From: Mesorhizobium sp.
Lineage (GTDB): Bacteria; Pseudomonadota; Alphaproteobacteria; Rhizobiales; Rhizobiaceae
Assembly: GCF_016793485.1 (NCBI RefSeq)
Contig: NZ_JAEULZ010000046.1
Coordinates: 355,789-419,788 of the forward strand
Length of the DNA stretch: 64,000 nucleotides
Direction of reading: 5' to 3'
Made by a program: the position numbers and the translations under genes. The notes below the pieces were generated by a model. That model was not told the origin of the DNA and did no database searches. It worked only from the letters and a program-made list of their open reading frames with translations. This document shows, piece by piece, positions 844 to 14,957 of this stretch; positions within the stretch are counted from its first letter, which is position 1; each line of letters starts with the position of its first letter.

Positions 844-874
844 TTGCTCCTGTAGTGGCTACAGGAAGTATGTA
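844..874 (+). promoter_or_regulatory. MerR-type operator/promoter, copy 1
   Basis: The -35 element TTGCTC (844-849) and the -10 element TATGTA (869-874) are separated by 19 bp, the overlong spacer typical of MerR-activated promoters. The spacer holds a perfect dyad, CCTGTAG (849-855), TGG, CTACAGG (859-865). It lies between the divergent merR gene and the ligase/P450 operon, so it probably activates the operon and autoregulates merR. Confidence 0.85.
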
Positions 875-894: not shown

Positions 895-2286
895 GTGAAC
901 CTGGGAACGATAATGACCGAGCATGTCATAGGCCTGATCTGGGACGCCTGGCGCGCTCGAAGGAGCGAAGTCGGCGCAATCGCCCAACGCCAACGCGCCC
1001 GTCTCGCCGACATGGTCGCCCATGCCCGGGCCGGCTCGCCGTACTACCGTGAGTTGTACCGCGAGCTGCCGGATCGGGTTGAAAGCGCTGAGCGGCTTCC
1101 TGTTACCGACAAGAAGACGTTGATGGCTCGCTTCGACGATTGGTGTGTCGATCGGGAGGTAACCGAGGAACGGGCGCAAGCGTTCGCAGAAGATGCGAAG
1201 CTAATCGGCGAGCGTTTCCTGGAAAAATACACGCTGCTGACGACCTCGGGCACGACGGGGACGCGCGGAGTCTTCGTGCTCGATGACCGGAGCATGGCCG
1301 TCACCACCGCGATGGCCTTTCGCATGCTGACAACCTGGCTCGGTGCGGGGGATTTCATTCGGATCGTGGCGGGAGGAGGGCGCATGGCGATGGTCATGGC
1401 GACGGGCGGCCACTTTGCCTCGGCGGTGGCTGCGGCACGCCTGAAGAAGAGCCGAGGCCGACGCCTCGAAGTGCTGTCGGTGCACATGCCTTTGCGGGAG
1501 CTCGTGACCCGGCTCAACCAATTCCGACCGGTGCTCCTCGCGCCTTACGCGAGCATGGCGGCGCTGCTTGCGAGCGAACAAGAAGGCGGCCGTCTGCACA
1601 TCAATCCGGCGTTATTGGCGCTCTCCGCCGAAGGGCTGCCGGAAGGCGAGTACGATCGAATCGCCCGAGCATTTAAGGCAAAGGTCGGCAACAGCTACGC
1701 CGCTACCGAGTGTCCGTTCTTCAGCTACAGCTGCGAGCATGGGTGGTTGCACGTCAACAGCGACTGGGTGGTGTTTGAGCCGGTCGACGCGGGCCATCGG
1801 CCGGTGCCGCCAGGTGAGCCGTCCCATACGGTGCTCATCAGCAATCTCGCCAATCGAGTGCAGCCCATTTTGCGCTACGATCTGGGTGACAGTGTCTTGC
1901 AGCAGGCGGGACCTTGCCGGTGCGGCAATCCATTTCCATCGATCCGTGTGCAAGGTCGATCATCGGAGGTCCTGATCTTCCGCACCGATGGTGGCGACCG
2001 GGTAACTGTCGCGCCGTTGGCCTTTGCCACTTTGGCCGATCATGCACCGGGACTGCAGATGTTTCAGATCGTGCAGACTGCGCCGGCCAGTCTGCGCGTG
2101 CGTTTGCAGACGCGTGACGCTGATTCGGATCGTGTCTGGGAAGCGGTGCAGGCCGGCATAAGACGTTTGCTCGCCGATCATGGCCTCGCTCATGTGGCCG
2201 TGGAGCGCGCTGAAGAAGCGCCGGAGCAGTCGAAGGGCGGCAAGTTTAGGCAAGTTCTCCCGCTCGTGGACAGCCCCCGCTCGTAG
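895..2286 (+). CDS. Adenylate-forming ligase of the phenylacetate-CoA ligase (PaaK) type
   Basis: A 463-residue member of the ANL adenylating superfamily. The AMP/phosphate-binding loop TTSGTTGTRG is at residues 116-125. A second motif, NSYAATECP, fits the adenine-binding A5 region, and a C-terminal YDLGD...CRCGNPFP...VQGRSSE block matches the PaaK/F390-synthetase hinge. Such enzymes activate a carboxylic acid as an acyl-AMP and usually pass it to CoA; the substrate here is unknown. It is the first gene behind MerR box 1 and precedes a fatty-acid peroxygenase gene by 53 bp, which suggests a fatty or aromatic acid substrate. The start is uncertain: GTG 895 follows GGAGG (887-891) very closely, and ATG 913 is the alternative. 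Confidence 0.8.
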   Translation: MNLGTIMTEHVIGLIWDAWRARRSEVGAIAQRQRARLADMVAHARAGSPYYRELYRELPDRVESAERLPVTDKKTLMARFDDWCVDREVTEERAQAFAEDAKLIGERFLEKYTLLTTSGTTGTRGVFVLDDRSMAVTTAMAFRMLTTWLGAGDFIRIVAGGGRMAMVMATGGHFASAVAAARLKKSRGRRLEVLSVHMPLRELVTRLNQFRPVLLAPYASMAALLASEQEGGRLHINPALLALSAEGLPEGEYDRIARAFKAKVGNSYAATECPFFSYSCEHGWLHVNSDWVVFEPVDAGHRPVPPGEPSHTVLISNLANRVQPILRYDLGDSVLQQAGPCRCGNPFPSIRVQGRSSEVLIFRTDGGDRVTVAPLAFATLADHAPGLQMFQIVQTAPASLRVRLQTRDADSDRVWEAVQAGIRRLLADHGLAHVAVERAEEAPEQSKGGKFRQVLPLVDSPRS

Positions 2287-2339
2287 GTCGCCTGTGGCAA
2301 GGAGGACGTGCGAGACAGGATATCAAGAAGGACAGATCG

Positions 2340-3587
2340 GTGCCCCGAATTCCACGTGAGAAGGGACTGGATTCGACGCTCGCCCTTGCCGGAGATCCAT
2401 ACAGATTCATCTCGAACCGGTGTCGACGCTACCGATCGGACCTGTTTGAAACGCGGCTCCTGCTGCGGAAAACTATCTGCATGACGGGCCCCGAAGCGGC
2501 GCGGCTGTTCTACGATCCGAGTCGGTTCGTGCGCTGCAGTGCCACGCCAAGGGCGATCCAGAAGACATTGCTCGGGGAAGGTGGCGTACAGGGCCTCGAC
2601 GACGGGGCGCATCGACATCGTAAGCAGATGTTCATGTCCCTGATGGCGCCCGAGCGCATCGAGCAGCTCATAGAGCTGACCGGCGCGGAGTGGAGGGTCC
2701 GCGTGCGCAAGTGGGAATCGATGCACAAGGTCGTGCTCTACCCGGAGTTTCACGAGCTTTTGACGCGCGCGGCGTGTGCCTGGGCCGGCGTGCCACTGGC
2801 GGATTCAGAGGTCGATGCGCGAACGCGGGAGATTGCCGCACTGTTTGACCATGCGGGTTCGCTCGGACTTAGGCATTTGTGGTCGCGGTGGGCTCGAAAA
2901 CGGGCAGACCGCTGGCTGGAGGAGGTCATCGAAAAGATCCGTAATGGCCGACTCCACCCGCCCGAACAGTCGCCCGCCCACACCATAGCGTGGCATCGTG
3001 ATTTGAATGGCGAGCTGCTGACGCCCCACGTCGCTGCTGTCGAGCTGCTCAATGTGATCAGGCCGACGGTCGCTGTCTCGGTCTACATGCTCTTTGTCGC
3101 GCATGCATTAAACGCGCATCCTAAACTCCGAGAGGCGGTTCTGGCCGACCATGATGGCTACGCCGGCCGCTTCGTTCAGGAGGTTCGGCGATACTATCCC
3201 TTCTTTCCGGCGGTCGCTGCACGGACGCGGCAGGCGTTTGAATGGAACGGATATCAGTTCCCCGAAGGTCGACGCGTGATCCTTGATTTGTACGGAACCA
3301 ACCAGGACCCTCGGACGTGGGGGAGGCCGGAGGAGTTCGAGCCCGAGCGATTTCGGCGGTGGGACGGGAGCTCCTTCAATTTCATCCCTCAGGGTGGCGG
3401 GGACCACAATGTTGGTCATCGCTGTCCTGGCGAATGGATCGCGATTGAGCTCATGAAGCTCGCAGCAGATTTTTTCACCCGGCGCATGACCTACGACTTG
3501 CCGGAACAGGATTTGCGGATCGACTGGTCGCGGCTGCCCGCGTTGCCGCGTAGTCGGATGGTGATCAGCAACGTGAGGGAGATTTAG
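2340..3587 (+). CDS. CYP152-family cytochrome P450 fatty-acid peroxygenase
   Basis: A 415-residue protein that follows the CYP152 (P450 BS-beta / SP-alpha) pattern along its whole length. The heme ligand Cys362 lies in GHRCPGEW, and Arg241-Pro242 in NVIRPTVAV corresponds to the carboxylate-binding Arg-Pro pair that replaces the usual acid-alcohol pair. Residue 84 is Gln (GVQGLD), as in the hydroxylase BS-beta, whereas the decarboxylase OleT has His. By family knowledge it uses H2O2, without a redox partner, to hydroxylate fatty acids at the alpha or beta carbon. It starts with GTG 2340 and shares an operon with the upstream adenylating enzyme under MerR box 1. Finding this enzyme under a metal-sensor promoter is unusual. 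Confidence 0.93.
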   Translation: MPRIPREKGLDSTLALAGDPYRFISNRCRRYRSDLFETRLLLRKTICMTGPEAARLFYDPSRFVRCSATPRAIQKTLLGEGGVQGLDDGAHRHRKQMFMSLMAPERIEQLIELTGAEWRVRVRKWESMHKVVLYPEFHELLTRAACAWAGVPLADSEVDARTREIAALFDHAGSLGLRHLWSRWARKRADRWLEEVIEKIRNGRLHPPEQSPAHTIAWHRDLNGELLTPHVAAVELLNVIRPTVAVSVYMLFVAHALNAHPKLREAVLADHDGYAGRFVQEVRRYYPFFPAVAARTRQAFEWNGYQFPEGRRVILDLYGTNQDPRTWGRPEEFEPERFRRWDGSSFNFIPQGGGDHNVGHRCPGEWIAIELMKLAADFFTRRMTYDLPEQDLRIDWSRLPALPRSRMVISNVREI

Positions 3588-3631: not shown

Positions 3632-4168
3632 ATGACAGTCTTGTTCGGAATCCCAATACCGTCTGTCGATCCAATATTTCTGAGCATTGTCGTCTTTCAT
3701 ATCCTTGTTGGCTTGCCCACCGTGATCGTGGGCGCGGTAGCAATGCTTAGCCGCAAAGGGAGCCTTCGACATTCCCGGTTCGGATCGCTTTATTTTTGGC
3801 TGCTCTCGATCTTATTCATCTCTGCAACAGTTCTTGCTGCGATGCGCTGGGAGCACGACTATCATCTGTTCATTCTCGGAGTTTTGTCGTTCTCGGCAGC
3901 GGTTTTTGGCAGAACCGCCGCGCGTCGCCGCTGGCCGCAATGGCCGCGCCTTCACCTCTCTGGGATGGGGGGATCGTACATCCTGATGCTGACGGCCTTC
4001 TTGGTGGACAACGGGCAGTTTCTGCCGGTCTGGAGAGATCTGCCGCACTTGACGCTCTGGTTCGTGCCAAGCGTGCTCGGCTTGCCGTTTCTGATGAATG
4101 CGCTGATCAGGCATCCGCTGGTCATTGACTATGGTCGGCAGACCTCGTCGTACCGACCCTCAAACTGA
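3632..4168 (+). CDS. DUF2306-like integral membrane protein
   Basis: A 178-residue, very hydrophobic protein with about five predicted membrane helices (near residues 13-38, 50-68, 75-92, 108-125 and 135-158). Conserved-looking polar positions include the HLSGMGGSY stretch and LTAFLVDNG, a pattern seen in DUF2306 membrane proteins, which have no established function. It follows the P450 gene by 44 bp and is probably the third gene of that operon. Downstream lies MerR box 2, so transcription is re-initiated after it. A role in lipid or envelope modification is only inferred from its neighbours. Confidence 0.6.
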   Translation: MTVLFGIPIPSVDPIFLSIVVFHILVGLPTVIVGAVAMLSRKGSLRHSRFGSLYFWLLSILFISATVLAAMRWEHDYHLFILGVLSFSAAVFGRTAARRRWPQWPRLHLSGMGGSYILMLTAFLVDNGQFLPVWRDLPHLTLWFVPSVLGLPFLMNALIRHPLVIDYGRQTSSYRPSN

Positions 4169-4188: not shown

Positions 4189-4219
4189 TTGATCCTGTAG
4201 TCTCTACAGGAAGTAGATT
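4189..4219 (+). promoter_or_regulatory. MerR-type operator/promoter, copy 2
   Basis: TTGATC (4189-4194) and TAGATT (4214-4219) are spaced by 19 bp around the perfect dyad CCTGTAG (4194-4200), TCT, CTACAGG (4204-4210). The geometry is the same as copy 1. It sits 27 bp ahead of the MBL-fold gene start and should place that gene under the same metal sensor. Confidence 0.85.
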
Positions 4220-4246: not shown

Positions 4247-5201
4247 ATGAAAGCCGCGGTCGCTAGCGATACCGAGACTAACTTCCCCCAGACAGCGCAA
4301 CGGTCATTGCCCATCCGGAAAGGTCCGATTGTGACGGGCTTTTTCGAGAAACGGACCTCCAGCGTCCAGTATGTCGTCGCGGACCCGGAAACAAAACGCT
4401 GTGCCATCATCGATCCGGTCCTGGACTTCGATCCGAAGTCGGGCGCGATCGCCACATCGTCTGCGGACGCCCTTTTAATATACATCGATCGTGAGGGGGT
4501 ATACGCTTGAGTGGATCCTAGATACGCACCCCCACGCTGACCATTTCTCGGGCGCTGGATACCTGAGCGAGAGAACCGGAGTTCCGACCGCCATCGGCGC
4601 CAAAGTGGTCGACGTCCAGAAGTTATGGAAGGGAATTTACAATCTGCCCCTAAGTTTTCCGGCAGACGGTTCGCAGTGGCACCGGCTTTTTTCCGACGGC
4701 GAGCGCTTCAAGATCGGCAATATGGATGTCGAGGTACTGTTCACGCCGGGGCATACTCTGGCCTCGATTGCCTACGTCACTGGCGACGCGGCCTTCATTC
4801 ACGACACGCTTTTCATGCCGGACGGCGGTACGGCGCGCGCGGATTTTCCCGGCGGTAGCGCGAGTGCGCTGTGGAAGAGCATCCAGCGCATTCTGGCGCT
4901 GCCGGACGAGACGCGTTTGTTCACTGGCCATGATTATCGTCCGGGTGACAGGAAGCCGGCGTGGGAGAGCACAGTCGCCCAGCAGAAGGCAGAAAACATC
5001 CATGTGACCAAAGCGATGACGGAGGAGGAGTTCGTCGCTCTGCGGGAAGGGCGCGACCGAGAGCTGCCCATGCCGAAGCTCATCCTGCATTCGTTGCAGG
5101 TGAATATTCGCGGAGGGCGGCTGCCCGAGCCCGAGAGCAACGGTAAGCGCTATTTGAAGATCCCCCTCGATGCGCTGGAGGGCGCACGTTGGGACGAGTG
5201 A
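4247..5201 (+). pseudogene. MBL-fold hydrolase (Blh/persulfide-dioxygenase-like), split by a +1 frameshift
   Basis: Two overlapping frames together make one metallo-beta-lactamase-fold protein. Frame 1 (4247-4510) carries the N-terminus and ends abruptly after YIDREGVYA. Frame 2 (to 5201) resumes with YTLEWILD and contains the metal motif THPHADHFSG, the second metal region TPGHTLAS, and GHDYRPG. Removing one G from the GGGGG run at 4495-4499 restores a continuous product of about 317 residues. Homologues lie with rhodaneses and act on sulfane sulfur (ETHE1/Blh group). The break could be a true mutation, a slippage site or a sequencing error. It lies directly behind MerR box 2 with a good AGGAG ribosome-binding site. 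Confidence 0.8.
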
Positions 5202-6188: not shown

Positions 6189-6219
6189 TTGCTTCTGTAG
6201 TGACTACAGGATGTAGGGT
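6189..6219 (+). promoter_or_regulatory. MerR-type operator/promoter, copy 3
   Basis: TTGCTT (6189-6194) and TAGGGT (6214-6219) have a 19-bp spacer around the dyad CTGTAG (6195-6200), TGA, CTACAG (6204-6209). It lies 57 bp ahead of the metal ATPase start codon and is the probable metal-inducible promoter for the ATPase and the lspA-ccdA block. Confidence 0.85.
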
Positions 6220-6275
6220 TAGCAAGAGTGAGAAAGCGTGGAGCCGAGCGCAATGACAATAGTAAGGGGATTGTG

Positions 6276-9200
6276 ATGACTGTTGATGCCGCGGCGATGA
6301 GCCCTTCAAGCACCCTGCGCTTCAAAGTCGATGGCTTAGATTGCCAGAACGAGGTTCGCGCGCTTCGTGTTGCCGTGGCGCCGCTTGTCGGCGGCGACGA
6401 CAAACTGACCTTCAGTACTCAAGCCGGAGTCATGGAGGTTAAATCCGAGAACGCTTCGGCGATCGACGCCATTGAACGGGCGGTGGCGACGACCGGTATG
6501 CGAGCGCATTTCCTTGGGGAGCCAGTGCAGCCACCTGCATCGGCATTGCTGTTTCGGGTCGAAGGGCTCGACTGCAAGAATGAAGTCGCGACGCTCAAGC
6601 GTGAGATCGGTCCGCTGATTGGGGGCGAGGCTTGGCTGATGTTTGACACCGCGAAGGGCTTGATGACGGTTGGGCCACAACGACAGGCGACCATCGACGA
6701 CATCATCGCCCGCGTTGCCCCGACTGGCATGCGTGCTTCCCTTGTTGAGGTTGGCACGGCAGAGACAATGCTCTTTCGCGTCCACGGCCTCGACTGCAAG
6801 AACGAGGTGGCGGCCCTCGTGCGGGAACTGGGTCCGCTTGTTGGCGAGGACAAGCTCGCCTTCGACACCGCGCGAGGCATGATGACCGTGGCCCCCCAAA
6901 TACGGGCGGCGGCCGACGCGATCGGGGAAGCCGTAGCTCGAACGGGCATGCGCGCCGAGCCCTGGTCACCGCCGGCAGTCTCGGGCAGTGCGACCGAGCG
7001 CGCCGGAGTGCCTGAAGGTCCAGCGTGCGGCTGCACCGCAGAGGTGGAGGAGGCACTCAGTCCTCCGATTCCGACCCGCTTGGCCGGCCAAGTCGTGTTT
7101 CGCATTCACGGCATGGATTGCGCCGACGAAATCGCGGCACTGAAGCGCGAGGTCGGTCCGTTAGTCGGGGAAGACAAGCTCGTCTTCGATCTCCTCAACG
7201 GCCGTATGTCGATCGACGTGACGCCGGATGCGGCGCTCGAAGCCCGCATCGAGAAGGCGGTGGCCCGTGCCGGTCTACACGCCGAGCGCTGGATCGAAGG
7301 CGACACTAGCGAAGCCGCGCAGGCCGAAGAGCGCCGCAAACGAGTTCAGTCGTGGCTGACGACCGCAAGCGGCGTGCTCACGGCGTTGGGCTTCGCGGTC
7401 CACGCTTGGCTCGGGGGCGGCGTGATCGCGGCTTTCGAAGCAGGCGAACACGCCCTAGGCTCGACCCCGTTGCCGAGCATGGTCCTTTACGCCGTCGCGG
7501 TGCTTTGCGCGGCGCGGTACGTCGCGCCCAAGGCTTGGCTCGCGGCCAAACGGCTACGTCCCGACATGAATCTGCTGATGATGGTCGCGGTCGCGGGCGC
7601 CATCGGTATTGGCGCCTGGTTTGAGGCCGCTACAGTCTCGTTCTTCTTTGCGCTGGCGCTGGCGCTCGAGGCTTGGAGCCTCGGTCGCGCGCGGCGGGCG
7701 GTTGCCGCCCTCATGGAACTCGCGCCGCCCACAGCGCGCGTGAAGCTGGAGGACGGCTCGGAGCGCGACGTTCCGGCGGCCGAGGTTCGGGTCGGCGCGC
7801 ATATCATCGTCCGGCCGGGAGACAAGGTGCCGCTCGACGGCCGGGTTGCCGCTGGCGAGAGCGAGGTCAATCAAGCGCCGATCACCGGAGAAAGCGTGCC
7901 CGTATTCAAGGCAGAAGGCGACGAGGTCTTTGCCGGCACCATAAACGGAGAGGGTGCACTTGATGTCGTGACCACCAAAGCGGCGAATGACACGACGCTC
8001 GCCCAGATCATCCGCATGGTCGGTTCGGCGCAGAGCCGACGCGCGCCCAGTGAGCAATGGGTGGAGAAGTTCGCGCGTGTCTACACGCCCGTGGTGATGG
8101 TACTCGCCATTGCGATCTTTCTCGCTCCGCCCTTGCTCTTGGGCGGTGCGTGGGACGTCTGGTTCTACCGGGCTCTCGTGCTCCTCGTGATCGCTTGCCC
8201 CTGCGCCCTGGTGATTTCGACGCCGGTGACGATCGTGGCGGCACTCGCCGGCGCCGCGAAGCAGGGCGTCCTCGTGAAGGGCGGCACACATCTCGAAACG
8301 CCTGCGCACCTCAAAGCCATCGCCATGGACAAGACGGGCACTCTCACCGAAGGGCGGCCGCAGGTCGTCGAGATCGTGCCGCTTGGAGGCCGCAGTGAAA
8401 GGGAGCTCCTTGGCTTGGCCGCAGCCCTGGAGGCGCGCAGCGGACATCCGATCGCTCGCGCCATCCTGGCGAAAGCCACCGAACTGAAGATTGTCGCCGA
8501 GCCTGCAGAGGCCGTCCAAGCCATCACCGGTCGAGGCGTCATCGGTCGAGTGGCCGGCCGTGAGATGTGGCTCGGGTCGCGCCGCTACATTGAGGAGCGA
8601 GGCATCAACTCAGATGCAGTTCTGCAGCGGGCCGATAAGCTTTCAAGCGCCGGTCGCACCATCGTCGCGGTAGGCGATGGTCAGGACGTCTGGGGGCTTG
8701 TCGCCGTTGCCGATGCCGTCAGGCCAGAAGCGAAGGAAATTGTCACAGCGCTTCACCGCGCTGGGATCAAACACGTTGTGATGCTCACTGGAGACAACCG
8801 CGCGACAGCGGAGGCGATTGCCAAGCAGACGGGCATCGATGAGGTCCGGGCGGAACTTCTGCCCGGCGACAAGGTGGCCGCAGTCGAGGATTTGGTGCGG
8901 CGCTACGGATCGGTTGCCATGGTCGGCGACGGGGTCAACGATGCTCCCGCAATGGGACGTGCCAATCTGGGCATCGCAATGGGCGCCATGGGCAGCGACG
9001 CCGCCATTGAAACGGCCGACGTGGCACTCATGTCGGACGACCTCTCGAAGCTTCCTTGGCTTGTGCGACATTCGCGCGCGACGCTCGCGGTGATCCGGCA
9101 GAACGTTGCATTCTCCATTGCTGTGAAGCTTGTGTTCACAGCGCTGACGGTGATTGGCCTCGCATCGCTATGGGGTGCCATCGCGGCCGACGTCGGTGCG

Positions 9201-9341
9201 TCGCTGCTGGTCGTTCTTAACGGCCTGCGCCTGCTCAACCGCGGTCAGACCAGCACCCAACAGGGTGGCCCCTCCGGCGGCCTCGGCGTATCGCCGCACC
9301 GGCGTCAGGCTGCCGCATTCACCCACACGGTCCCGGGATAG
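6276..9341 (+). CDS. P1B-type heavy-metal ATPase (Zn/Cd/Pb export) with four N-terminal HMA-like repeats
   Basis: ATG 6276 has AAGGGGA just upstream, giving 1021 residues, much longer than ZntA/CadA. Four tandem HMA-like domains occupy about residues 12-350. Their metal loops read GLDCQNE, GLDCKNE, GLDCKNE and GMDCADE, so each keeps one Cys and has Glu where the second Cys of CxxC would be. A Cys pair also sits in the linker (GPACGC). The pump follows: TGES, the membrane metal site Cys-Pro-Cys (641-643), phosphorylated Asp685 in DKTGT, SGHPIA, MLTGDN and GDGVNDAP. By family knowledge it exports Zn2+, Cd2+ or Pb2+ across the inner membrane using ATP. It lies behind MerR box 3 and is followed by lspA, as in pbr loci. 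Confidence 0.93.
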   Translation: MTVDAAAMSPSSTLRFKVDGLDCQNEVRALRVAVAPLVGGDDKLTFSTQAGVMEVKSENASAIDAIERAVATTGMRAHFLGEPVQPPASALLFRVEGLDCKNEVATLKREIGPLIGGEAWLMFDTAKGLMTVGPQRQATIDDIIARVAPTGMRASLVEVGTAETMLFRVHGLDCKNEVAALVRELGPLVGEDKLAFDTARGMMTVAPQIRAAADAIGEAVARTGMRAEPWSPPAVSGSATERAGVPEGPACGCTAEVEEALSPPIPTRLAGQVVFRIHGMDCADEIAALKREVGPLVGEDKLVFDLLNGRMSIDVTPDAALEARIEKAVARAGLHAERWIEGDTSEAAQAEERRKRVQSWLTTASGVLTALGFAVHAWLGGGVIAAFEAGEHALGSTPLPSMVLYAVAVLCAARYVAPKAWLAAKRLRPDMNLLMMVAVAGAIGIGAWFEAATVSFFFALALALEAWSLGRARRAVAALMELAPPTARVKLEDGSERDVPAAEVRVGAHIIVRPGDKVPLDGRVAAGESEVNQAPITGESVPVFKAEGDEVFAGTINGEGALDVVTTKAANDTTLAQIIRMVGSAQSRRAPSEQWVEKFARVYTPVVMVLAIAIFLAPPLLLGGAWDVWFYRALVLLVIACPCALVISTPVTIVAALAGAAKQGVLVKGGTHLETPAHLKAIAMDKTGTLTEGRPQVVEIVPLGGRSERELLGLAAALEARSGHPIARAILAKATELKIVAEPAEAVQAITGRGVIGRVAGREMWLGSRRYIEERGINSDAVLQRADKLSSAGRTIVAVGDGQDVWGLVAVADAVRPEAKEIVTALHRAGIKHVVMLTGDNRATAEAIAKQTGIDEVRAELLPGDKVAAVEDLVRRYGSVAMVGDGVNDAPAMGRANLGIAMGAMGSDAAIETADVALMSDDLSKLPWLVRHSRATLAVIRQNVAFSIAVKLVFTALTVIGLASLWGAIAADVGASLLVVLNGLRLLNRGQTSTQQGGPSGGLGVSPHRRQAAAFTHTVPG

Positions 9342-9421: not shown

Positions 9422-9949
9422 TTGATCGTGGCGTATCCGAGGTTGATTCGACGAACTGTATTGGCCGGTGGTGCCCTAGCTGCCGCCCTTGCGGTCGATT
9501 TTGTCACGAAATGGCTGATCGTCAACATCGTGATGGTGCCACCACGCATTATCGAGATCGTGCCATTCTTCAATCTCACGCTCGGTTTCAACACGGGCGT
9601 CAGCTTCGGGATGTTCCGGGATCTTTTCGTGGAGCGGCCACTGTTGCTCGCCGGGATAACACTCGTGATCGCGGCAGGAATCCTCGTCTGGGCCGTGCGA
9701 ACCGCAAAGCGCATTGAGACATTCGCCTTGGGCCTGATTGCCGGCGGTGCTGTAGGCAATGTGGTCGACCGGGTGCGCCACGGCGCGGTGACCGATTTCC
9801 TTGATTTCCACGTCGGCGATTGGCACTGGCCCGCCTTCAATATGGCGGATGTGATGATCACCATCGGCGTCGTCCTATTGATCACAAGTTCCCTCTGGTT
9901 GGCAAACCCGACGGTTCAAGAGCGGCCAAGTCGAGTGGGGCGCTCATGA
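9422..9949 (+). CDS. lspA: Lipoprotein signal peptidase (prolipoprotein SPase II)
   Basis: A 175-residue inner-membrane aspartyl peptidase with four hydrophobic helices. Both catalytic Asp motifs are present, GNVVDRVRHGAVTDFLDFH and FNMADVMI, along with the FNTGVSFGM loop. The start is TTG 9422, or GTG 9428 with AGGGA at 9413-9417. Chromosomal LspA cleaves prolipoproteins, but copies beside Pb/Cd ATPases belong to metal cargo (compare PbrC). A decayed second copy of its 3' end lies after the next gene, at 10478-10625. Confidence 0.93.
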   Translation: MIVAYPRLIRRTVLAGGALAAALAVDFVTKWLIVNIVMVPPRIIEIVPFFNLTLGFNTGVSFGMFRDLFVERPLLLAGITLVIAAGILVWAVRTAKRIETFALGLIAGGAVGNVVDRVRHGAVTDFLDFHVGDWHWPAFNMADVMITIGVVLLITSSLWLANPTVQERPSRVGRS

Positions 9950-10063: not shown

Positions 10064-10465
10064 ATGTCAGATACAACGACGACTGCGCCTCAACCGAGAG
10101 CCCCAGGCATGTTGTGCCCCCACTGCAAGATCGATCTCGTCATGGCGGATCGCCAGGGCGTCGAGATCGACTATTGCCCCAGCTGCCGCGGGGTCTGGCT
10201 CGATCGGGGTGAACTCGACAAGATCATCGAGCGGAGTGCCGCATACGAGGCGCGTCCGCCGGCGCCGCAGGAGACAGCCCAGCCGGGCAGCGTCCTGCCT
10301 CAAGCCGCCACGCCCTTCCTCCCGCCTCAACCCGCGCCGCTCCCGCAGGGCGGCTACCCGAACCAAGGCGGCCACTATGACCAGGGCACCTACGGTCGTC
10401 GCGATGATTGTGATGATCGCGGGCGCCGGGGCAGCCGAGGGTTTCTTGGGCGGCTGTTCGACTAG
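10064..10465 (+). CDS. TFIIB-type zinc-ribbon protein
   Basis: A 133-residue protein. An N-terminal zinc ribbon (MLCPHCK at about 16-22, then DYCPSCRGVWLDRGELDKI at about 36-55) matches the zf-TFIIB family of small bacterial proteins. A Pro/Gln/Gly-rich low-complexity linker follows, with a basic Arg/Gly end (GRRGSRGFLGRLF). Function is unknown; such proteins are often near membrane or stress genes. It splits lspA from ccdA and is followed immediately by a second, decayed lspA 3' end, which suggests that it was inserted. Confidence 0.8.
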   Translation: MSDTTTTAPQPRAPGMLCPHCKIDLVMADRQGVEIDYCPSCRGVWLDRGELDKIIERSAAYEARPPAPQETAQPGSVLPQAATPFLPPQPAPLPQGGYPNQGGHYDQGTYGRRDDCDDRGRRGSRGFLGRLFD

Positions 10466-10627: not shown

Positions 10628-11365
10628 ATGCCGATCATCGACGTGTCTTTACTGGGTTTGGCAACAGCAGGGACGGCGGGCGCCATTTCCTTCCTTTCGC
10701 CCTGCGTGCTGCCCCTTGTCCCGGGGTATTTGTCCTACGTCGCGGGAGGAGCCGACGGCACCGTCGGCGACGGCAGGACACGCCAGCTCCATGTTTTCGG
10801 ACCAGCGCTCCTGTTCGTGCTCGGCTTTACCACCGTCTTTGTTCTACTCGGGCTCAGTGCGATGGCCCTCGGCGGATTTCTGCAACGCTACCAGATCGAA
10901 GCGAACCTGATCGGTGGCGCGCTGGTCGTGGTTTTCGGTCTCGCGATGACAGGGCTGCTACCCGTGCCGGTCGCGCTGATGGCGGATCGGCGCTGGCGAG
11001 GGCCGAAGCAGATCGGAGGCACTTTCGGGGCCTACCTTCTCGGCATAGCCTTTGGTTTAGGCTGGACGCCCTGCATCGGCCCGGTGCTCGGCTCGATCCT
11101 CACCGTTACGGCAACCTCGGCCGGCAATGGAGCGGTGCTCCTTGGCGCCTACGGTCTCGGCCTCGGCATCCCGTTTCTGCTTGTAGCGCTGTTCTTCGGC
11201 AGCGCGGCCGTGGTCCTGAAACGCATGCGGCGCGCCGGAGCGGTCCTCAATATCGGCGCTGGGGCAGTGATGGTCGGCGTCGGCATTCTGATGATGACGG
11301 GTCGCCTGCAGGACATCGCCATTTGGATGCTGACGACGTTTCCAGCGCTCGGCAACATCGGTTGA
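10628..11365 (+). CDS. ccdA: CcdA/DsbD-like thiol:disulfide membrane transporter
   Basis: A 245-residue protein with six membrane helices. It has the two Cys signatures of CcdA: SFLSPCVLPLVPGY in the first helix and LGWTPCIGPVLGS in the fourth. CcdA carries reducing equivalents from cytoplasmic thioredoxin to periplasmic thiol proteins. In metal loci it may keep periplasmic Cys partners reduced, but that role is inferred. It starts two bases after the lspA remnant. A decayed copy of its own 3' end occurs at 12936-13104. Confidence 0.88.
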   Translation: MPIIDVSLLGLATAGTAGAISFLSPCVLPLVPGYLSYVAGGADGTVGDGRTRQLHVFGPALLFVLGFTTVFVLLGLSAMALGGFLQRYQIEANLIGGALVVVFGLAMTGLLPVPVALMADRRWRGPKQIGGTFGAYLLGIAFGLGWTPCIGPVLGSILTVTATSAGNGAVLLGAYGLGLGIPFLLVALFFGSAAVVLKRMRRAGAVLNIGAGAVMVGVGILMMTGRLQDIAIWMLTTFPALGNIG

Positions 11366-11490
11366 GGTGCGCGGCCGCATACGATCGCGCGGTCTGGGCA
11401 GACGGGCCGACTCGTCCTCGGGGCAATCGATCCGCCGCTCGACCGCTCCGTCCTGCAGGCAACACTGTCATTTGGCCTTCAAGGAAAACC

Positions 11491-12402
11491 ATGGTGGACC
11501 ATCAACCAACTAAAAGGCGCGCGCTGCTCTTCTTGAACCCGCGAAGCCGCAGCGGTGGAAATCGCGCAGCTGATGGCGCTGTTAAGCAGCTTGAGGCTGG
11601 CGGATTTATCTTGACGCACGGGCTGTGCACTCAGTCGGCAGATATGACCCGCGAGGTCAGTCGGCATGCTCATCAGGTGGACCTCGTGATCGTTGGCGGC
11701 GGCGACGGGACTGTCAACGCCGTGCTCAAGGGCGTGCTAGAGACTGGCTTGCCGCTCGGCATCCTACCGTTCGGCACGGCGAATGACCTTGCCCGGACAC
11801 TTGGTATTCCGAGTGAACCTGCAGCGGCGGTCGCGGTCATCGTCGGGGGCTGCACGAGGCGGATCGACGTCGGCCAAGTCAACGACCAGTTCTTCGTCAA
11901 CGTGGCGAGCATGGGCCTGAGCGTTGAACTCGCGCGTCGGATGACCGGCAATCTGAAGCGGCATCTGGGGCGGCTAAGCTACCCGCTGGCTGCTATCAAG
12001 ACAGTGCTTTACACGAGGCCGTTCACAGCCGAGGTGGCGACCACAGACCGCACGATCCGGCTCCGCAGTCTTCAGATCGCAGTCGGGAACGGTGTATTTT
12101 ACGGCGGCGGTATGGCTGTCTACGAGGCCGCCGCAATCGACGACCAATGCTTGGATTTCTATAGCATTGAGCCGCGACGATTTTGGCAATGGCCGCTTTT
12201 CCTGACGGCATTCCGGCGCGGTCGTAACCGGAATCTTGTCGGCATGCGGGCCTTCTGCAGCCCTGGTCCGCTTGAGATCCGAACCGACCCACCGCTACCT
12301 ATCAACACTGATGGGGAAATCACCACAATGACGCCAGCCCGATTCAATCTCTTGCCGCGTGCGGTGTCGGTCTTCGTACCAGCGGATCAAGCCCCAGCGT
12401 AA
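11491..12402 (+). CDS. YegS/diacylglycerol-kinase-like lipid kinase
   Basis: A 303-residue DAGK-catalytic-domain protein. ATG 11491 has AAGGAA about five bases upstream; a much longer open frame runs 5' of it but overlaps ccdA and looks like noise. The nucleotide-binding motif VGGGDGTVNAV and the LPFGTANDLAR motif are intact, and the C-terminal half has the usual beta-sandwich pattern with GDxE near the end (NTDGEIT). Family members phosphorylate diacylglycerol or related lipids, making a phosphatidate-like product at the inner leaflet. With uppP nearby it adds to a lipid-phosphate theme. It is separated from ccdA by 125 bp without an evident gene. Confidence 0.85.
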   Translation: MVDHQPTKRRALLFLNPRSRSGGNRAADGAVKQLEAGGFILTHGLCTQSADMTREVSRHAHQVDLVIVGGGDGTVNAVLKGVLETGLPLGILPFGTANDLARTLGIPSEPAAAVAVIVGGCTRRIDVGQVNDQFFVNVASMGLSVELARRMTGNLKRHLGRLSYPLAAIKTVLYTRPFTAEVATTDRTIRLRSLQIAVGNGVFYGGGMAVYEAAAIDDQCLDFYSIEPRRFWQWPLFLTAFRRGRNRNLVGMRAFCSPGPLEIRTDPPLPINTDGEITTMTPARFNLLPRAVSVFVPADQAPA

Positions 12403-12417
12403 CAAACGGAGATCGGT

Positions 12418-12894
12418 ATGACAGAGACATATTGGGGTATTTGGAGCGACGTTCCCACCCATCTTATACGTCTTGGATTGGCGTTCATGTTCGCCGTCCC
12501 GATCGGGTGGCATCGGCAGCGCAACGAGCGCAGCGCTGGCCTGCGCACGTTTCCAATCGTGGCTATCGCGAGCTGCGGCTTTGCAATCCTTGCGATCGAG
12601 ATTCTCGGTCGGAATTCACCAGAGCAGGCTCGAATCCTAGCAGGCCTAATCACCGGCGTGGGTTTCCTTGCGGGCGGCACCATTATCGGTTTTGGCTCCG
12701 ACGTTCGTGGCACCGCTACTGCAGCGAGTCTATGGAACGTAGGCATCATAGGAGTTGCAGTAGGCTTCGCCTACTATGATCTCGCCCTTGTCCTTTCTAT
12801 CGCTAACTTTGGAGTACTTGCTCTAATCACCCCGTTAGAGCTGAAAGAGCACCGCGAGCTCGAAGTACCTGCCGCAGACCGGGTGGAGAAGTAG
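12418..12894 (+). CDS. mgtC: MgtC/SapB-family membrane protein
   Basis: A 158-residue protein with about four helices and the family landmarks: IRLGLAFMFAVPIGWHRQ at the start, AGLRTF, GVGFLAGGTII and TAASLW. MgtC-like proteins modulate P-type transport or the F-ATPase and help under low Mg2+ or stress. It lies 15 bp after the lipid-kinase gene, so they are probably co-transcribed. Many MgtC proteins have a longer C-terminal domain; this one ends after the membrane part. Confidence 0.88.
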   Translation: MTETYWGIWSDVPTHLIRLGLAFMFAVPIGWHRQRNERSAGLRTFPIVAIASCGFAILAIEILGRNSPEQARILAGLITGVGFLAGGTIIGFGSDVRGTATAASLWNVGIIGVAVGFAYYDLALVLSIANFGVLALITPLELKEHRELEVPAADRVEK

Positions 12895-13104: not shown

Positions 13105-13194
13105 TCAATCGGCTTGAGCGTCTCTCCCGGGGAGCGGGCTCGCGAATTCGTTATGGACCCCGTCGAACCAGCCTCCAAAATTGCAGGAGCAAGT

Positions 13195-14067
13195 ATGACC
13201 GCAGGGTGTACTCAGGGCGTCGACACCGGGTTCGTGGCGTTGGGGTATGGCAAAGTCGCCCTGCTGGGCGTTGTCCAGGGGATCACCGAACTGCTACCGA
13301 TCTCGTCGACGGCGCACATGAGGATCGTACCTGCGTTGCTCGGTTGGCAGGATCCGGGCTCCGCCTTCTCCGCCGCCATGCAGCTCGCAGCACTGGCTGC
13401 CGTCGTCAGCTATTTTTGGGACGACGTGAGCCAGTTGGCCACGAACTCGCTTCGCGCCGTTGTGCATCGGGACTTACGGGACCGACACTTCCGCTTCTCT
13501 GTTTGGATTGGTCTCGCGACGATCCCGATCGGCGTGGCTGGCTTGTCTTTGTCGGGAGTGCTGAACGCCTGCGGTTCTCCCTTGCGCAGCCTCACCGTGA
13601 TCGGCTGGGCTTGCATCGTGATGGCCATCCTGCTCGCGCTCGCGGAGATTTATGCCCGCCACAGACGGACGCTAGAAAATGTATCGGTGATCGATGCGAT
13701 GATCGTGGGCATCGCTCAGGTTGGAGCATTGATCCCAGGTGTGTCGCGCTCGGGCTCTACCTTGACCGCGGCGCTTGCGCTCGGCCTAAAACGGGAAGAG
13801 GCGGCGCGATTCTCCTTCCTCCTTGGCCTGCCGGCAATTTCCCTCGCTGGCTTCAAAGAACTTTGGGAACTGTACAAAGCTCAATTGTCTCTCGACGGCT
13901 GGTCCATCCTTCTCGTTGGGCTCGCGGTGGCTTCTATTTCAGCTTTCTTCGCGATCTGGGGGCTAATGCGCGTGCTCGAGCGCTTTTCGGCTTGGCCCTT
14001 CGTGATTTATCGAGGTGCCCTCGGCATCTTTCTCATCACCGCCATTGCATTGGGCCGAATCACTTGA
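13195..14067 (+). CDS. uppP: Undecaprenyl-diphosphate phosphatase (UppP/BacA type; PbrB-like)
   Basis: A 290-residue inner-membrane phosphatase. ATG 13195 follows GGAG (13186-13189). Both catalytic motifs are present: GVVQGITELLPISSTAH and PGVSRSGST. The enzyme dephosphorylates undecaprenyl diphosphate, and in lead-resistance operons the UppP-like PbrB supplies phosphate for extracellular Pb precipitation. Its position after a metal ATPase and lspA supports the lead-type reading. It is followed by a cation diffusion facilitator after 22 bp. Confidence 0.92.
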   Translation: MTAGCTQGVDTGFVALGYGKVALLGVVQGITELLPISSTAHMRIVPALLGWQDPGSAFSAAMQLAALAAVVSYFWDDVSQLATNSLRAVVHRDLRDRHFRFSVWIGLATIPIGVAGLSLSGVLNACGSPLRSLTVIGWACIVMAILLALAEIYARHRRTLENVSVIDAMIVGIAQVGALIPGVSRSGSTLTAALALGLKREEAARFSFLLGLPAISLAGFKELWELYKAQLSLDGWSILLVGLAVASISAFFAIWGLMRVLERFSAWPFVIYRGALGIFLITAIALGRIT

Positions 14068-14089
14068 TTTGCGAACGTTGGAAATCTGC

Positions 14090-14713
14090 ATGAGTGCGAA
14101 CGACAACAAAGAAGAATCCGAAATCGAACTTGACGCGAGTAACGCCGCCCAACGCAAGAGCTTGCTGTGGGTGCTCGGCATCAATTTCCTGCAAGTCATA
14201 GTCGCCGGGCTCGTAGGAGTTATTGCAGACTCCACCGGTCTGCTGGGTGCCGCCCTCGATAATTTAGGAGACGCCGCTGTCTATGCCGTCAGCATCTATG
14301 CCGTTGGGCGGACGATCGTGGCCAAGGCGCGTGTCGCACGGCTGTCCGGCATCCTTCTGATCGTTTTGGGCCTCGGGCTGCTCGTGGAGGTTCTTCGACG
14401 TTTCTTCGTGGGCGCTGAGCCGATCGGCTTAGCCATGATTGTTACGGCCATCGCAAACGCCGCGACCAATCTGTTTTGCCTCCGGCTGCTGCGTGCGCAT
14501 CGAGACGAGGGCGTGCACCTGAAGGCGTCCTGGATCTTTACGACTAACGACATGCTGGCCAACGCTGGCATCGTTGTTTCCGGCGCCGCAGTCATGTTCT
14601 TCAGGTCACCGCTTCCCGATTTGATCATAGGGTTGGTGGTTGTTGGGATCGTTCTCAAGGGCGGCTGGGATATTCTGAAGGAGGCGCGCGAGGCGCAACG
14701 GGAGGCATTGTAG
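14090..14713 (+). CDS. Short cation diffusion facilitator (CDF)-type transporter
   Basis: A 207-residue six-helix protein. The second helix has DSTGLLGAALDNLGDA, matching the metal-binding segment of CDF transporters, and the fifth-helix region has KASWIFTTNDMLANAGI with the usual Asp/Asn pattern. It lacks the cytoplasmic ferredoxin-like domain that makes typical CzcD/ZitB proteins about 300 residues long, and it ends soon after the sixth helix. Likely role: proton-driven efflux of Zn2+ or a similar ion. ATG 14090 was chosen; the frame is open further upstream but overlaps uppP. Confidence 0.82.
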   Translation: MSANDNKEESEIELDASNAAQRKSLLWVLGINFLQVIVAGLVGVIADSTGLLGAALDNLGDAAVYAVSIYAVGRTIVAKARVARLSGILLIVLGLGLLVEVLRRFFVGAEPIGLAMIVTAIANAATNLFCLRLLRAHRDEGVHLKASWIFTTNDMLANAGIVVSGAAVMFFRSPLPDLIIGLVVVGIVLKGGWDILKEAREAQREAL

Positions 14714-14957
14714 GTCAACGAAAAATGATGAGCGAGCGGTCCCTCCGCCTTGCTCGGATCGTACTCGCGGCTTGAGGCAGCAGCCTGACTTAACTGCGAC
14801 GAATGGCCTTACCGCAGCACTTCCGCCTCGGCTCCGAAAAAATCGGTTCCGCTGCGAGTGCGTGGCGACGAAGACGAATCTGATGCGCTCGCGAGGCTGC
14901 GGATCGTTTCACTGTTCAAGCCTAGAGAACAAACCTCCGATCTCGATCACATTTTTC
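14714..14957. other. Intergenic stretch before MerR box 4; no gene seen
   Basis: These 244 bases, with the following 149 up to the LysR start, hold no credible coding frame. Apart from MerR box 4 no clear hairpin or repeat was noticed. Confidence 0.5.

Follow-up and report, generated by a model that had tools for sequence, protein, structure and literature searches.

Metal-resistance neighbourhoods of a CYP152 fatty-acid peroxygenase and a PaaK-like ligase carried by a Mesorhizobium gene cluster

A stretch of 64,000 nucleotides from Mesorhizobium sp. (the window; assembly GCF_016793485.1, contig NZ_JAEULZ010000046.1, positions 355,789–419,788 of the forward strand) holds an operon that encodes a PaaK/F390-synthetase-like adenylate-forming ligase and a CYP152 fatty-acid peroxygenase, preceded by the same MerR-type operator that precedes a P1B-type ATPase gene. 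At the level of sequence and gene order, this cytochrome P450 falls in a CYP152 clade, CYP152B1 included, whose members are mostly found next to CDF or P1B exporters within metal-resistance clusters, frequently with LspA and CcdA as well. The favored interpretation, held at about even odds (a probability near 0.5), is that metal-induced, hydrogen peroxide (H2O2)-driven α-hydroxylation of free fatty acids protects the cell envelope, while the ligase, where present, activates acyl chains. The two activities would make up a lipid/peroxide arm belonging to a mobile Zn/Cd/Pb-type resistance module under MerR control, a purpose that we infer. The CYP152 family is well studied and used in biotechnology; to our knowledge, its natural role and the cellular source of its H2O2 are an open question.

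The P450 gene (2340–3587, + strand) starts with a GTG codon that aligns with residue 1 of CYP152B1. Its best PDB match is P450SPα/CYP152B1 (3awm; E=3.5e-166, residues 1–412), with which it shares 59% identity, and it does not reach the cut-off of the CypC equivalog NF053744 (575.4 bits vs 600). The Arg-Pro pair (R241/P242), which in this family presumably replaces the acid-alcohol pair of helix I, is retained, as is a glutamine at position 84. In a 75-row CYP152 alignment, which includes near-identical rows and from which L057–L059 and L062 were dropped as too short, Arg-Pro is present in 75/75 rows, the haem cysteine is invariant, and the glutamine occurs in 71/75; the exceptions carry Glu (L054, L055), Ala (L056), or His (L073). 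The hydroxylase-type active site described in the initial annotation is thus supported, and both genes lie where that annotation had placed them, in whole reading frames. According to the part of the source available (PMC5377825), OleT has His85 at the glutamine position and P450SPα hydroxylates the α carbon only. An OleT-like alkene maker is rejected, the window P450 having Gln84 and not His, and by homology the enzyme is predicted to be an H2O2-driven α-hydroxylase of free fatty acids. Purifying selection is indicated by ratios of nonsynonymous to synonymous substitution (dN/dS) of 0.13–0.16 against nearest relatives for both the P450 and the ligase, the latter approximate because its dS is near 1.5; whole frames and a dN/dS of ~0.15 rule out pseudogenes.

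The promoter of the operon (844–874) consists of TTGCTC, a 19-bp spacer bearing the dyad CTGTAG-TGG-CTACAG, and TATGTA at 869–874, and thereby has the dyad within a 19–20-bp spacer that is typical of CadR/PbrR-type MerR promoters. Its operator (844–864, +) reads TTGNNNCTGTAGNNNCTACAG. Divergent from the operon lies a gene for a CadR-like MerR-family regulator (409–837, −; Pfam MerR_1/MerR-DNA-bind) whose best PDB match is CadR 6jgv. The regulator has cysteines at the three CadR cysteine positions, aligned with those of 6jgv and of 5gpe, which we take to be metal ligands; it does not reach the cut-off of any listed NCBIfam model (TIGR02047, 102.8 bits vs 151.45). The operator has four matches in the window (844–864, 4189–4209, 6189–6209, and 14958–14978, all +) vs none in 100 shuffles, and seven in the whole genome, where a reversed control pattern gave none; these controls rule out a chance operator. 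The four window copies precede, respectively, the ligase–P450 operon, fragments of a persulfide dioxygenase gene (blh), the P1B ATPase gene, and a LysR gene, and the three others lie at two mer loci and directly before another P1B gene beside MerR genes. Among the seven proteobacterial loci that hold a CYP152 gene and the 5′ end of a ligase gene, the window included, the operator lies no farther than 220 bp ahead of the ligase match in six (the exception is L002, the module of Chelativorans multitrophicus DSM 9103) and before a P1B gene in all seven. The heavy-metal promoter proposed earlier is therefore real as sequence, and the divalent-metal-type MerR with its four matching operators constitutes, on the same basis, a local set that spans the ligase–P450 operon and the P1B ATPase. 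Since the operator is shared by the operon and the P1B gene, the former is very likely induced by metal along with the exporter.

The association with metal genes extends well beyond this genome. A genome scan that started from six short peptides of the window P450, and so favors near relatives, yielded 62 CYP152 loci. Their flanks were inspected over as much as 7 kb, or less where a contig ended, with neighbor queries taken partly from the loci themselves. A metal transporter was called in 37 of the 62 (38 if a MerA-like match in L032 is counted), CDF in 33, LspA in 30, ArsR in 24, CcdA in 23, P1B in 17, MerR in 17, and the ligase in nine. Chance would place ~0.4 LspA and 1.0 CDF matches in the 846 kb of flanks, on the basis of 81 LspA and 186 CDF matches in ~165 Mb from 33 host genomes, hand-chosen mostly from metal-linked loci. 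CypC/P450BSβ (CYP152A) and OleT (CYP152L1) belong to the same CYP152 family as the window P450; unlike the window, none of the seven Bacillota CYP152 loci (L044, L045, L047, L048, L050, L052, and L060) has a called metal transporter. These seven contain none of the called neighbor families at all, which argues that neighbor calling was not promiscuous.

In a tree of 81 CYP152 rows (75 different sequences), the branch picked as the best separator of the metal label has a Shimodaira–Hasegawa-like approximate likelihood ratio (SH-aLRT) support of 97, with 46 of 49 rows metal-linked on one side and four of 32 on the other. The label changes eight times vs 24.9 when it is shuffled, the labels of L133–L138 and L158–L161 being assigned by hand. 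A first tree of 77 rows, which still included the broken or short L069, L058, L059, L057, and L062 that the final tree leaves out, gave six changes vs 22.9.

A further explanation is that CYP152 and the ligase are mere passengers of plasmids and integrative elements whose cargo also includes metal resistance. A guaA-like gene and then a tyrosine-integrase-like gene are found a short way upstream of the window (L129:6554–9680; named from their translations), and conjugation genes occur farther downstream in the window, whose end is the contig end. An integrative conjugative element beside guaA thus probably carries the metal genes as its cargo, the guaA/integrase site being its likely insertion site. 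Such passenger status would also suit the 117 plasmid records with a CYP152 match and the identical CYP152B1 copies described below for Sphingomonas, yet it is improbable in view of how tightly CYP152 is packed with metal genes in Alphaproteobacteria and a planctomycete. In Marinibacterium, CDF, LspA, and CYP152 genes run head to tail, with czcD and lspA overlapping by 4 bp and cypC following 3 bp later; lspA and the P450 gene overlap by 4 bp in Skermanella, and cypC overlaps a FieF-annotated gene by 4 bp on a planctomycete plasmid. The order ArsR, CDF, CaCA, CcdA, LspA, CYP152 recurs in Alphaproteobacteria. This packing argues against hitchhiking, as do the recurrence of the association in Actinobacteria, the shared metal operators, and the dN/dS of ~0.15.

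CYP152B1 itself also has metal genes around it. Its solved chain matches the product of a gene on a plasmid of S. paucimobilis FDAARGOS_908 at 100% identity across 411 residues. This gene sits between P1B ATPase/CueR and MerR/MerT genes in a Cu/Hg-type island. Among 151 genomes drawn from the genus of S. aracearum (Sphingomonas), 12 carry a CYP152B1 copy of at least 96% identity, ten of them at 100% and one (G780) with an internal stop; any CYP152 at E<=1e-60 is found in 14. All 12 copies lie among metal genes, with P1B/MerR and/or MerR/MerT beside them. In the 11 newly opened copies, P1B and MerR occupy one side in nine and MerR with MerT the other side in ten, L151 and L156 stopping at contig ends and L157 having no P1B called within 8 kb; the twelfth, L027, has P1B, MerR, and MerT matches nearby. 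The P1B/CueR/MerR/MerT/CDF island with CYP152B1 is nearly unchanged among Sphingomonas species (L083:4573–10438; L027, L084, L138, and L147–L157), and the environmental strain NIC1 is one of its carriers. CYP152B1 and the window P450 share the Arg-Pro pair, the glutamine, the haem cysteine, and a location among metal genes. They differ in that the window P450 stands behind a MerR operator and is paired with a ligase, whereas CYP152B1 is flanked by P1B/CueR and MerR/MerT, has no ligase, and has no operator found before it.

These observations bear on the role held for CYP152B1, in which the P450 would be a source of 2-hydroxymyristate for the ordinary biosynthesis of sphingolipids or other membrane lipids. 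2-Hydroxymyristate is typical of Sphingomonas. The accessible portion of one report (PMC10002949) describes 2-hydroxy sphingolipids in Sphingomonas and ties cloned 2-hydroxylases of this genus to H2O2-dependent P450s, CYP152B1 being in the reference it cites. A gene present in just 12 of 151 genomes and always among metal genes makes this role highly improbable as the general explanation. The sporadic, identical copies mark a gene that has spread horizontally in recent times, which is hard to reconcile with a core role in sphingolipid synthesis. Because CYP152B1 occurs sporadically and belongs to a metal island that is mobile, its assumed service in basal sphingolipid synthesis in Sphingomonas is in doubt.

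The ligase gene (895–2286, +) encodes 463 residues from a GTG codon, with a probable ATG start at 913. Its product is a remote relative of PaaK and F390 synthetase (TIGR02304, 115.7 bits, below the cut-off of 251.9) and has no Pfam match at E<=0.001. It shares the adenylating motifs of the TIGR02304-related ligases, all intact (SGTTG, Y..TE, RYDLGD, GR, and GGK), and the C-terminal lysine occurs in 35 of 36 aligned rows, the window included; these elements presumably have the catalytic roles of a PaaK-like adenylate-forming core and C-terminal domain. Unlike members of the TIGR02304 family, the window ligase falls below the cut-off and in a 17-row clade with 16 metal-linked rows. In the 34-row ligase tree the metal label changes five times vs 11.5 in shuffles; the clustering of its alphaproteobacterial rows is biased because these were mostly drawn from CYP152 loci, the plasmid and actinobacterial rows having been found via the ligase.

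The ligase and the P450 occur together in nine of the 62 CYP152 loci, all nine with a P1B ATPase, in Alphaproteobacteria, a Burkholderiales metagenome-assembled genome, a planctomycete (L019), and an actinobacterium (L054); in L054, as in L005, the contig ends within the ligase gene. The pair thus recurs near metal regulators and exporters, which rules out a pair unique to this Mesorhizobium genome, the outcome that would have counted against the earlier proposal. The pair is also found on three actinobacterial plasmids, from Pseudonocardia (L073), Arthrobacter AK-1, and Arthrobacter FB24. The AK-1 P450 is whole (412 residues) and has the Gln, Arg-Pro, and Cys, while the annotated FB24 P450 is without about its first 70 residues; the four ligase-paired actinobacterial P450s have Gln (AK-1, FB24), Glu (L054), or His (L073) at the variable position. 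A plasmid search gave 11 ligase matches of at least 56% identity (H41–H51), of which nine were opened, H46 and H47 being left out as the same strain as H48. An exporter gene lies within 7 kb in seven of the nine (H41, H43, H44, H45, H48, H49, and H51), a cation transporter at ~7 kb in H42, and none in H50. CYP152 is near the ligase in three (H45, H48, and H51), the H45 P450 spanning the start of the circular record.

In the proposed mechanism, metal stress would generate peroxide and, by damaging the membrane, release fatty acids; the P450 would convert these acids to 2-hydroxy acids, consuming the peroxide as it does so. Where present, the PaaK-like ligase might then turn these or other acids into acyl-adenylates or acyl-CoAs for re-use, a step that is the weakest link of the scheme. 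The outcome would be a mended or less permeable envelope, with the exporters meanwhile bringing down the metal. The neighboring LspA, lipid kinase, UppP, and CcdA genes point to the envelope as the target.

Several results weigh against this mechanism. Some concern the ligase, which was not seen in the inspected flanks of 28 of the 37 metal-linked CYP152 loci and conversely occurs in metal operons with no CYP152 in the stretch examined (L067, L070, L131, and L132). Its solved relatives include PaaK and AjiA1, and its AlphaFold model, built from seven sequences, is poor (mean predicted local distance difference test score, pLDDT, 53). No transporter was called in 25 of the 62 CYP152 loci, nor in three rows on the metal-linked side of the tree (L028, L032, and L136), though the genes around L136 include MntR, multicopper oxidases, and a “metal transporter.” When 385 genomes were drawn evenly from the class, five had CYP152 at E<=1e-80; one is the genome of the window, and the other four P450s are distant (44–52%), with no metal genes called nearby. 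An operator search before CYP152B1 gave no match, the operator there preceding merT.

The ligase–P450 pair recurs, but a fixed two-enzyme pathway is not supported; the ligase may activate the product of the P450, as first suggested, and the P450 may consume peroxide. Since either gene can occur alone in a metal locus, ligase and P450 are, by their distribution, two parts of one metal toolkit in which pairing is not obligatory. The metal link is likewise broader, in terms of gene neighborhoods, than the ligase pair, taking in the whole CYP152 clade, mostly without a ligase.

Alternatively, the P450 might act solely as a sink that removes the H2O2 raised by thiophilic metals, with the fatty acid sacrificial and the hydroxy acids waste. 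The H2O2-driven chemistry of the family suits this proposal, as do redox partners in some clusters: a 1-Cys peroxiredoxin beside CDF–CYP152 (L088), a thioredoxin (L086), and MAPEG genes (L064, L065, and L088). Catalase or peroxiredoxin would, however, be a better peroxide sink, and a fatty-acid enzyme under purifying selection is kept with lipid and lipoprotein genes (LspA, the diacylglycerol kinase, and UppP). The sink proposal has some chance of being right, on the whole a small one.

The hydroxy acids could instead be the useful product. As bidentate hydroxy-carboxylates, 2-hydroxy fatty acids, possibly tailored by the ligase and neighboring methyltransferases, may bind Zn, Cd, Pb, Cu, or Hg at the membrane. 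This lipid trap draws on the α-specific chemistry of CYP152B1, as given in the available part of PMC5377825, and on the ligase adjoining S-adenosylmethionine (SAM)-dependent methyltransferases and ICMT/PEMT-like proteins in actinobacterial metal operons. Set against these are the many metal-linked loci in which no ligase is seen and the fact that no exporter specific for such a lipid was seen, and the trap is quite unlikely. A bolder proposal makes CYP152B-type peroxygenases as a class, CYP152B1 included, metal-resistance enzymes. They would convert metal-provoked H2O2 and free fatty acids to 2-hydroxy fatty acids that serve as a membrane-bound metal ligand or barrier lipid, with the PaaK-like ligase (and methyltransferases in Actinobacteria) building these acids into a dedicated lipid. 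This is speculative and, as a whole, rather unlikely.

The actinobacterial ligase neighborhoods have features of their own. In metal operons without CYP152, the ligase often follows ArsR and a SAM-methyltransferase, and in Rubrobacter marinus the genes of the ligase metal operon overlap by 4 and 8 bp. In L067, L070, L073, and L131 the ligase has ArsR and a SAM-methyltransferase as neighbors, with ICMT/PEMT-like proteins too in L067 and L070, an arrangement suggesting that metal resistance involves a small molecule or lipid that is tailored. Actinobacterial ligase loci without a called exporter (L108–L111) contain TetR, MFS, FtsX-like permease, LacI, and other unrelated genes and give no hint of a substrate.

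The remaining genes of the window complete the cluster. Downstream of the P450, a 178-residue membrane protein (3632–4168, +) has weak Pfam similarity to DUF2306, below cut-off, and no match in the other loci searched. The second operator is followed by a blh fragment without the sulfur-transferase part (4247–4510, +; NF040641 positions 138–200) and, in a different frame, the rest of the dioxygenase domain (4491–5201, +; NF040641 positions 198–423). In this copy the N-terminal domain is missing and the remainder is divided between two frames, although a MerR operator of its own stands in front. Upstream of the window, at a distance of ~2 kb from the MerR gene, the same genome holds an intact blh gene (431 residues; L129:12647–13942; NF040641, 727.9 bits vs a cut-off of 625). 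The P1B ATPase (6228–9341, +; probable ATG at 6276) is of the Cd subfamily, above the cut-offs of TIGR01512 (512.9 bits vs 313.5) and TIGR01525 (602 vs 346.25). In the translation of 6276–7300, it has four N-terminal HMA-like repeats with CxxE replacing the usual CxxC (GLDCQNE, GLDCKNE twice, and GMDCADE), the fourth being the best Pfam HMA stretch.

Next come the lipoprotein signal peptidase LspA (9422–9949, +; PF01252, and TIGR00077 over cut-off), a small zinc-ribbon-like protein with two CxxC pairs (10064–10465, between lspA and ccdA) that had no match in an NCBIfam scan, and a CcdA/DsbD-type membrane thiol carrier (10628–11365, +; PF02683 over cut-off). They are followed by a diacylglycerol-kinase-like lipid kinase of the YegS type (11458–12402, +; PF00781, PF19279), an MgtC-family membrane protein (12418–12894, +; PF02308), the undecaprenyl-diphosphate phosphatase UppP/BacA (13114–14067, +; PF02673), and a short CDF “cation transporter” (14015–14713, +; PF01545 over cut-off; probable ATG at ~14090). 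The fourth operator falls inside the listed open reading frame of the LysR-type regulator (14858–16030, +; PF03466, PF00126), upstream of its probable start (~15107), and the metal signal may pass in this way to a second regulator.

With pbr/cad/znt-type operons, such as pbr of C. metallidurans, the window has in common a MerR regulator, a P1B ATPase, and a signal peptidase gene; beyond these, it also holds UppP and CDF. The pbr locus, as described in the accessible part of its report (PMC1526738), has no P450 and no adenylating ligase, unlike the window. Among the matches listed in a literature search, whose coverage left subscription journals largely outside, no title or abstract start reported CYP152, a fatty-acid peroxygenase, or an F390-like ligase in metal operons, and a search on 2-hydroxy fatty acids and metals gave nothing relevant among the matches listed.

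For one large CYP152 clade, the question of natural role and peroxide source would thus receive a testable answer, namely that the genes are clustered with metal exporters and expressed under the control of metal sensors. Metal resistance, a field centered on efflux, would gain fatty-acid chemistry and acyl activation, and the linkage of CYP152 to metal suggests that metal resistance in bacteria has a lipid or peroxide side of which little is known.

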